Positions 1,036-9,084 of a stretch of 64,000 nt of DNA are shown here, piece after piece. How positions within the stretch are numbered: position 1 is the first letter of the stretch; the number at the start of each line of letters is the position of its first letter. Position numbers and translations under genes: made by a program. This DNA is from Nitrosomonas sp. GTDB lineage: Bacteria > Pseudomonadota > Gammaproteobacteria > Burkholderiales > Nitrosomonadaceae. The stretch lies in the NCBI RefSeq assembly GCF_021731985.1, contig NZ_JAKFWH010000064.1, positions 1 through 64,000 on the forward strand, written 5' to 3'. Under the pieces are notes generated by a model. It worked only from the letters and a program-made list of their open reading frames with translations. It made no database searches and was not told the DNA's origin.

Positions 1036-1120
1036 TTTTACCCCTTCTTCGTGAATTAAAAGACAGATTCTAACTCTTCAAAGGCTATTCAAGTACTGTG
1101 CCTAGAACCAGGCCATCACC

Positions 1121-2428
1121 TTAATCAACAGCTTGCCATATTGCTCGCCAAGCTCGGCGGCGCTCGACAGATCTTTGTGCAAGTCTTTCAAAAATGCCAG
1201 GCTGCGCCGTGCCAGACTTTTTCGCTCGGTTTCCGGTTTCCGGTTTATGGCTGATGGCGGCGAGATCGCCGACGGCTTTCTGGGCTTCTTGTTTGTCGAT
1301 GGCTGGCAAGTGGCTGTTGGCCAGCAACTGCTGTAATGCTTGAAGTGCGGTTTTCAGCTCGGCATCGGCAACCTGTTCGATATGATTGCTGACCATACTG
1401 TGATCGCCGAGATTAACGGCGGAATGGTTGATCGACGCGTTCTCGATGTGACGGCTATGATCATTCATGATTTCCACCTTAGGGTTTTCCATAGCTTTGT
1501 TGATAAACTGCGCCAGCAAGCTGTCGTGCTTGTCGCGCAATTCGGTTTCATGGTGATGATGGACTTCGGTTAACTCCAGCTTTTGCGTGAGCAATTGTTT
1601 CTCGTGTTCTCGTTGCAGTAAATTCATTTCCAAAGCCATTTTTTCTTTCACTTCGGCATACACAGCCGCCTTGTCTATGCTGTCATGGCTTTGCGTGCGC
1701 ACCACCACCGATTCGTTTTTGCGCTCCAGGCTCTGGATGACGATATCGCCGCCTTGCTGTTTGATGCTTTCGATCGCGCGCAGCAAGGCTTGCAATTCAT
1801 CCGGGCTATGCGCGATGAAGTCCACGGTGTTCGCGATTTCCTGGTATAGCTTACTGAATTCGCTGGGTTTGAATTCACCTTGCGGCGGGTTGCGCTCGCT
1901 GCGGTCGCGTTGGGTGTAGACGTATTCGCAGTCTACCCGGTCGAATTGCGTTTGCTTGTCCATGCTCCAATTATCGATGATCGCGCCGGTCATTGTTGCA
2001 CCATTAAACCGCGCACCAAGCACCATCGCTTCGGAAAAATCGGCGTCGGTCAAATTGCAATCGCTGCAATCGGCTTCGCTCAAGTCGGCATGGTAAAAGT
2101 TACACTGGGAAAGGTTCAATCCCCGGAACGACAAGCCGCGCAGATTGAGATGGGAAAAATCCCGGTTATCCACTATACCGTCAGTCAATAACAGGCGCAC
2201 TGCTTTGCGTTCCAGCGGTGAACCATATATCCAGGCCAAATGCAGGTTTTTAGCATGGGTGAAATCCGGTTGATGGAACTTGGCAGCGGCAAAACGTGCA
2301 CCCGCCAGATCCGTATCGCTGAAATCGGTATGGGCGAGCGTGGCGCCGGCAAATTGCGTACCGCTCCAGCAACGCCACGCCAACGCATTGCGGTGCAATA
2401 ACGCCAGCATTGGTTCTTCGGATTGCAT
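1121..2428 (-). CDS. Pentapeptide-repeat protein, central and C-terminal part of a frame-broken gene
   Basis: About residues 20-160 are pentapeptide repeats of the A(D/N)LXX type (for example FSDTDLAGARF, LSEADCSDCNL), which fold as a right-handed quadrilateral beta-helix. A Glu/Gln/Lys-rich coiled-coil stretch with a HHHH patch follows near 240-300, then a helical tail. The last 32 residues (after KPETGNRA) are Arg-rich and shadow-like. Shifting frame at a heptamer repeat there gives a much more natural helical end, SLAFLKDLHKDLSS...VMAWF, ending at 1102. The ATG at 2428 has no obvious ribosome-binding site and this frame is already open from 2479, so it is probably the continuation of the upstream ORF. 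Function unknown. Confidence 0.7.
   Translation of the reverse strand: MQSEEPMLALLHRNALAWRCWSGTQFAGATLAHTDFSDTDLAGARFAAAKFHQPDFTHAKNLHLAWIYGSPLERKAVRLLLTDGIVDNRDFSHLNLRGLSFRGLNLSQCNFYHADLSEADCSDCNLTDADFSEAMVLGARFNGATMTGAIIDNWSMDKQTQFDRVDCEYVYTQRDRSERNPPQGEFKPSEFSKLYQEIANTVDFIAHSPDELQALLRAIESIKQQGGDIVIQSLERKNESVVVRTQSHDSIDKAAVYAEVKEKMALEMNLLQREHEKQLLTQKLELTEVHHHHETELRDKHDSLLAQFINKAMENPKVEIMNDHSRHIENASINHSAVNLGDHSMVSNHIEQVADAELKTALQALQQLLANSHLPAIDKQEAQKAVGDLAAISHKPETGNRAKKSGTAQPGIFERLAQRSVERRRAWRAIWQAVD
1227..1246. repeat. Heptanucleotide tandem repeat CGGTTTC, 2.86 copies
   Basis: Two perfect copies of CGGTTTC followed by CGGTTT, inside the 3' part of the pentapeptide gene. Removing one 7-bp copy puts the upstream frame into a well-formed alternative C-terminus ending at 1102. 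The repeat therefore coincides with an apparent +7 (frame +1) insertion. Confidence 0.9.
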
Positions 2429-3078
2429 CGCGTGGCGATTAAGATACCAACCGAATAACGAATAACGAATAGCTGATAGTTATCGCCACTCCCATTCCTA
2501 CTCCTACTCCCGCTAGCACTAGCACTCCTATGTCCGCTTCCACTAGTACTCTTATTTCCTCTTCCATTATCACTAACACCACCGTTCCCGCTATTGCCGC
2601 TCCCACTACCGCTCCTACCGTCCCCACTATCGTTACCAATCCCGCTCCCGTTACCGCTATCGCTAAATAATGCCACCCAATGATCCGCCAAATCCCGGTA
2701 TTTCAGCGCGACCCAAACTGACAGGCAGGTACTCACTGCAAGCAATAATACGAGAGCGAGGAAGTTGTAGCTACCCTCTGTGGTTGCATTGATCCCGGTT
2801 AGGCTCTTAAAAGCATCATTAATATAGAAAAAAGAAAGAAAATTGAAGATCAACGAAATAATTCCACAAGCACTGCCAAGTATGAAAGCCAATGCCCACT
2901 TGAATATAGTGCGTTGCTTATTGACCCCCATTGTCGCCCGGCAAAATTTGGCGCCGGTCAAATCAGCATTGCTGAAATCGCAGCTTTTCAACTGACAATC
3001 GGAAAAATCCGCGCCGCGCAAATCCTGCCCGCGGAAACTGCGGCCGTTCAAATTCTGTCCTGTGAAATTTTTATCCAT
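2185..3078 (-). CDS. Pentapeptide-repeat membrane protein, N-terminal part of a frame-broken gene
   Basis: Real coding runs from the ATG at 3078 to about 2455. It has pentapeptide repeats at residues 5-48 (FTGQNLNGRSFRGQDL, then ADLTGAKF), two hydrophobic helices at about 60-85 and 103-125, then a linker of 50-plus residues made almost only of Ser, Gly and Asn (about 138-200). After NYQLFVIRYS the frame becomes a shadow of the neighbouring ORF, so the printed C-terminus down to 2185 is not natural. The change of frame falls in a heptamer tandem repeat; one extra copy would fuse this to the 1121-2428 ORF as a single protein of about 640-650 residues. It would be an inner-membrane protein with pentapeptide domains on both sides of the linker. 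Confidence 0.7.
   Translation of the reverse strand: MDKNFTGQNLNGRSFRGQDLRGADFSDCQLKSCDFSNADLTGAKFCRATMGVNKQRTIFKWALAFILGSACGIISLIFNFLSFFYINDAFKSLTGINATTEGSYNFLALVLLLAVSTCLSVWVALKYRDLADHWVALFSDSGNGSGIGNDSGDGRSGSGSGNSGNGGVSDNGRGNKSTSGSGHRSASASGSRSRNGSGDNYQLFVIRYSVGILIATRCNPKNQCWRYCTAMRWRGVAGAVRNLPAPRSPIPISAIRIWRVHVLPLPSSINRISPMLKTCIWPGYMVHRWNAKQCACY
2452..2471. repeat. Heptanucleotide tandem repeat CGAATAA, 2.86 copies
   Basis: Two perfect copies of CGAATAA plus CGAATA, lying in the stretch (2429-2479) where both coding frames of the pentapeptide gene are open. Adding one copy, or removing two, joins the N-terminal frame to the downstream pentapeptide frame. Confidence 0.9.
2480..2665. repeat. 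Degenerate hexanucleotide-type repeat coding a Gly/Ser/Asn linker
   Basis: On the minus strand the sequence is a run of GGNAGY/GGNAAY-like units (G-rich, 3- and 6-base periodicity) that encode GSGSGN-type protein. All three minus-strand frames are open over most of it, as expected for low-complexity DNA, so it gives no frame information of its own. Confidence 0.75.
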
Positions 3079-8518: not shown

Positions 8519-9084
8519 ACGAACAAGAGCTGGGAAAGGAAATTGCCAGATTTTTAGACTTCGGTGCTGATGAGACTATTAAGCAGAGTACTTTGTATCG
8601 GTTGCAATCAGCCCGTAGAGCGGCTTTGGAGAATTGCCAGCCCACATTGAGGATTATTAATTCAGGTGATGGCACTTCCGTTTACGGCGGACATGGCGAG
8701 CATTTTAATACTGGAAAGCTATTATTGCTGCTGATAGTGCTGTTTACTTTTGCCCTGGTGTCCGCAACTTATTGGCAATTCCTGGAAAAAAGTAAGTCAG
8801 CTATAGATAACACGATACTGGTTGATGACTTGTCGATAGATACGCATATGGGTGATGAATCTGAGCTGGGTGATGAATCATCGCTAGATGCTTATATTGA
8901 CAATGTGCTTAAATTGGTTGATGACTTATCGGTAGACGCACATATTGATAATGAACCTGAACGGATTGATGACATGCCGACAGATGCGCGTATTGATGAT
9001 GAGCCTGAATTGACTGACGAATTACCGATAGATACTCATGTTGATAATAATGAGCTTGATGAATGGTTAGATTCCAATAAATAG
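8515..9084 (+). CDS. DUF3619 family single-pass membrane protein with acidic repeat tail (sigma partner)
   Basis: The start is the ATG at 8515 overlapping the sigma stop, with GGAG just upstream. Residues 1-65 are the cytoplasmic DUF3619 head (LGKEIARFLDFGADE, SARRAAL), about 69-88 is a membrane helix (LLLLLIVLFTFALVSATYW), and the remaining 100 residues are an extremely acidic periplasmic tail made of four or five imperfect units of about 16-17 residues (DDLSIDTHMGDE, DDLSVDAHIDNE, DDMPTDARIDDE, DELPIDTHVDNN). Family members usually carry a single such motif. The topology suits a membrane anti-sigma factor or sensor, which is inferred from pairing only. Confidence 0.82.
   Translation: MNEQELGKEIARFLDFGADETIKQSTLYRLQSARRAALENCQPTLRIINSGDGTSVYGGHGEHFNTGKLLLLLIVLFTFALVSATYWQFLEKSKSAIDNTILVDDLSIDTHMGDESELGDESSLDAYIDNVLKLVDDLSVDAHIDNEPERIDDMPTDARIDDEPELTDELPIDTHVDNNELDEWLDSNK
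8820..9065 (+). repeat. Imperfect tandem repeat of about 48-51 bp in the DUF3619 gene
   Basis: Repeated units beginning near GTTGATGACTTGTCG and GATGACATGCCG encode the acidic D-D-L-x-x-D-x-H/R-x-D-x-E pattern. The copies differ at many third positions and by small length changes, so they are diverged rather than recent. Confidence 0.7.

Follow-up and report, generated by a model that had tools for sequence, protein, structure and literature searches.

A probable recent pseudogene: a Nitrosomonas pentapeptide-repeat gene broken at two heptanucleotide arrays and a T-run

The window, i.e., the whole 64,000-nucleotide stretch of Nitrosomonas sp. DNA analyzed here, carries a pentapeptide-repeat gene whose reading frame is broken at three places (Table 1). 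Its native frames were compared with those of two relatives (G030 and G026) segment by segment, and each of them stays open and shows homology to the relatives across its own segment only. The two frames that can be read today overlap at approximately 2185–2479, as judged from the ORF listing and three-frame translations. Between 2473 and 2690, two frames are open at once, one of them Ser/Gly-rich and the other Val/Ala-rich and membrane-like, and this middle segment diverges fast in all three species (dN/dS near 1). The neighboring genes are intact in the window. One of them, a DUF1353 gene (628–1035), comes after the broken gene; it is visibly broken in a third relative, G016 (L057), while in G030 and G026 it was not seen immediately behind the pentapeptide-repeat gene. 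A scan for promoters and terminators gave results at chance level. At 8817–9048, the window further contains a 48-bp tandem array (4.8 copies, 68% matches), the unit of which is a multiple of three.

Table 1. Segments, frame breaks, and present-day reading frames of the pentapeptide-repeat gene (positions in the window).
Feature	Position	Strand	Basis
Broken pentapeptide-repeat gene	1102..3078	−	Conserved ATG at 3078 to ancestral stop codon at 1102–1104; intact single-ORF orthologs in G030 and G026
N segment, native frame, with the first pentapeptide block plus two predicted membrane helices	2693..3078	−	Pfam PF00805, hydropathy, segment alignment
Frame break 1: T-run, +1 base relative to both relatives; no heptamer array there	2690..2692	−	DNA alignment
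Middle segment with six-base-like purine-rich repeats	2473..2690	−	Three-frame translations; dN/dS near 1
Frame break 2: heptamer array CGAATAA ×2.86, +7 bp relative to the relatives' frame	2452..2471	−	
Main pentapeptide-repeat domain plus helical region, native frame	1249..2449	−	PF00805, 63.2 bits; dN/dS 0.21 against relatives
Frame break 3: heptamer array CGGTTTC ×2.86, clean 7-bp gain relative to both relatives	1227..1246	−	
Native C-terminal helical tail beyond break 3, frame still conserved	1105..1230	−	
Present-day ORF, 297 aa: N part and Ser/Gly stretch, with an out-of-frame tail	2185..3078	−	
Present-day ORF, 435 aa: pentapeptide domain and out-of-frame Arg-rich tail	1121..2428	−	

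In both G030 (L027:2093–4138, 681 aa) and G026 (L028:1559–3661, 700 aa), the ortholog is one intact ORF beside argJ and zapE; these lengths are counted from the first possible start, and counting from the conserved ATG gives about 28 and 37 residues less, respectively. DNA alignment of the window with both relatives revealed exactly three out-of-frame insertions (+1, +7, and +7). Neither heptamer array is present in G030 or G026, and each is one unit longer than in these kin. The ancestral single ORF is thus documented by two relatives, and the alignment assigns the three insertions to the window lineage. A preliminary description made from the window alone had proposed that a single gene is broken at both heptamer arrays, which the intact single-frame orthologs at the same locus bear out. 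Its count of two frame changes holds in that both arrays are breaks, but a third exists off the arrays, namely the +1 at the T-run. Because this break was overlooked, the Ser/Gly reading of 2473–2690 had been taken as native. Both relatives use the hydrophobic, Val/Ala-rich, membrane-like frame here, and in G030 a stop interrupts the Ser/Gly frame, which excludes a Ser/Gly linker as the native frame. The suggested fusion of the two halves by one extra copy, or two fewer, at 2452 is therefore arithmetically right for the Ser/Gly frame, but not for the hydrophobic frame of the relatives, and the statement that 2452–2471 lies within the only stretch open in both frames was loosely put, given the extent of the overlap. 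We also examined whether kin have arrays of equal length and the two halves as separate conserved genes, and found that they do not. Programmed frameshifting is not indicated either, as the frame change is not conserved and the orthologs in G030 and G026 are single-frame.

A strong match to the gene was obtained in 4 of 85 congeners and, at the thresholds used, in none of the genomes searched elsewhere (125 of the family and 399 of the order). G016 retains a remnant, in which about the first 25 codons, with a stop within them, run directly into the end of the gene, a deletion of ~1.84 kb having removed what lay between. By nucleotide identity of argJ, G016 groups with G030 and G026 (92–94%) and the window falls outside (82–84%); the losses in G016 and in the window are therefore independent. 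Patchy presence together with two losses suggests an accessory role for the gene. The only other pentapeptide-repeat matches in the genome of the window (G000) lie in a 1663-codon open frame (contig C11, 3624–3845; L003). Several congeners have ammonia monooxygenase, one complete genome with as many as three copies; a search of the draft to which the window belongs did not find it, perhaps because multi-copy genes assemble poorly.

With respect to the encoded protein, the two window fragments scored 63.2 and 36.9 bits against PF00805 (gathering cut-off 20.2) and the intact relatives 88.7 and 83.8. In these relatives, two pentapeptide blocks exceed the Pfam cut-off; hydropathy predicts membrane helices between the blocks, and a long helical tail comes after them. 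The best scores against NCBIfam equivalog models stayed below the cut-offs (Alr5209, 68.1 versus 125; MfpA, 65.1 versus 360; HetL, 59.2 versus 260; Qnr, 47.2 versus 240). Since all of them are far below, we regard the product as a pentapeptide-repeat protein, but not as a member of any of these four families. MfpA, HetL, and Qnr, the nearest named models, have the pentapeptide repeats (PF00805) in common with it; in contrast to them, its blocks are split by the predicted membrane helices and a long helical tail follows. Matches to solved structures were generic pentapeptide proteins, e.g., 2bm4. Structure prediction without alignment for the intact G030 protein gave a mean pLDDT of 42.9 and was confident over about the first 45 residues only. 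PADLOC returned one weak match, to the G030 tail, and none to the window ORF. A literature search yielded precedents only and nothing on this gene.

Both heptamer arrays are perfect, 20 bp long, and of period 7, and each lies exactly at a frame change (Tandem Repeats Finder and ORF listing), in agreement with the preliminary description. A scan of 940 kb of the window's own genome, in sampled stretches that make up about a third of it, found no perfect period-7 array of at least 18 bp other than these two. None of 20 bp or more occurred in five sequences of 464 kb generated with an order-3 Markov model, nor in 400 kb of the congener G026. Together, the three scans rule out a chance origin, and the earlier argument that arrays of equal length at both breaks are not a coincidence is sustained. 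The arrays record real events. An array of another kind was noted in G026 at L085:8895–8923, where the octamer array TTTTCTGC spans 29 bp; the 400 kb hold no other period-8 array as large.

The native frames still bear the marks of selection. For the pentapeptide part, dN/dS is about 0.21, compared to 0.205 for the intact relatives between themselves, an equality expected if the lesions are too recent for relaxed selection to show. The tail past break 3 has a dN/dS of about 0.02 (41 codons only, with dS near saturation), and window-specific changes in 1105–1230 number 4, 1, and 16 at codon positions 1, 2, and 3, respectively. All 647 codons of the native frames (647/647) are without a stop. 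Low dN/dS and the absence of stops indicate that selection acted on the gene along most of the branch, and the lesions are therefore recent. A stop is created by 3.5% of random substitutions, and neutral drift is bounded at about 0.043 substitutions per site (95%). As the chance of seeing no stop after 30 neutral substitutions is 0.34, plain decay suffices to account for the intact codons.

We consider it probable that the locus is a recent pseudogene, formed by ordinary decay of a dispensable accessory gene. As the two relatives show, the ancestor had a single ORF, about 650 codons long, for a protein with a short pentapeptide block, several membrane helices, the main pentapeptide domain, and the helical tail. 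Each 7-bp gain may have arisen when replication slipped across a pair of 6-bp direct repeats with a single base between them, by which a 13-bp period-7 stretch would have grown to 20 bp; period-7 stretches of at least 13 bp occur here at 0.23 per kb, and about 0.45 are expected in a 2-kb gene. Whichever lesion came first would have abolished function, and the later ones would then have been free to persist. Decay by 7-bp slippage and frozen mutations, both offered as readings in the preliminary description, are supported. The gene resembles frameshift pseudogenes made in bacteria by small slippage insertions: kin carry an intact ortholog at the corresponding position, the out-of-frame insertions are small and lie at short direct repeats, and another species has lost the gene independently. 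It differs from them in two lesions of equal size (7 bp), the sole such arrays in 940 kb, and in the absence so far of nonsense changes. Three indels without a nonsense change could, as a counterpoint, mean that the locus is unusually prone to indels, and tolerance after the first lesion explains only partly why both long arrays of 940 kb lie in one 2-kb gene. In the extreme case, the arrays of a slippage-prone locus would change often, and the population would mix whole, tail-swapped, and soluble states, the last with the Ser/Gly linker replacing the membrane helices; we regard this as very unlikely.

Several other explanations were weighed against decay. The organism might carry the native gene whole, with at least one of the three insertions being an artefact of draft assembly near a contig end. 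The genome is a draft of 93 contigs, only about 1.1 kb separates the gene from the end of contig C7, the +1 falls in a short T-run, and native-frame constraint is fully preserved with stops absent, all of which would fit such an error. However, the neighboring genes are intact, and among 180 matched relative ORFs (some of them mutually orthologous) this gene is the only credible frameshift, so the assembly is not generally frame-poor and any error would have to be local. Only two of the 180 ORFs were multi-frame, this gene and an apparent antisense shadow ORF, and genome-wide frame errors or decay were accordingly rejected as the main cause. Sequencing errors do not usually take the form of clean 7-bp tandem gains, which also counts against an artefact, and we judge this explanation unlikely. 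A split into two working genes, a membrane-anchored N part (2185–3078) and a soluble pentapeptide protein (1121–2428), could draw on the length of both present ORFs. Yet both end out of frame, whereas conservation is highest in the native tail that they have lost; the arrangement is seen in no second species, and no clear ribosome-binding site is visible by eye before 2428. Two functional products are thus very unlikely.

Phase variation, also raised in the preliminary description, would require the heptamer arrays to slip reversibly, switching the protein on and off or swapping its tail. Two non-triplet tandem arrays placed exactly at frame breaks and unique in 940 kb would suit such a contingency locus, as would recent lesions in preserved native frames, and precedents exist. 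Heptanucleotide loci of H. influenzae have up to 38 units, in one strain with the tract inside a frameshifted ORF (PMC2651432), and PMC4022640 cites capsule phase variation by tandem duplication in pneumococci (Waite et al. 2001, 2003). The H. influenzae loci share the seven-base unit and, in that one strain, the position within a frameshifted ORF, but each array here has 2.86 units and the relatives are without the tract. The capsule genes share an out-of-frame tandem duplication in the coding region, but the gene here has three lesions, one of them off the repeats, and neither variation nor reversion has been seen in it. A one-step slip would never yield the whole frame, as the +1 at 2690–2692 and the other array remain. 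Moreover, both intact relatives are without tracts in a comparison of one genome per species, the gene is lost outright in the sister species (G016), and 2.86 copies are short; for insertions of up to 9 bp in pneumococcal wchA, reversion at a frequency no higher than about 1e-5 is cited in PMC4022640. The off-array frameshift, the lack of any single restoring slip, the absence of tracts from kin, and the very short arrays all speak against a switch, which we consider quite improbable.

The protein, with pentapeptide blocks around membrane helices, is uncharacterized; in the genomes searched, it occurs in only a few Nitrosomonas. That one gene has gained 7 bp twice poses a small puzzle about local slippage. 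Read alone, a broken gene can resemble a switch; here, comparison with relatives reveals a further lesion away from the repeats and shows that a sister species has lost the gene independently, both of which point to decay.
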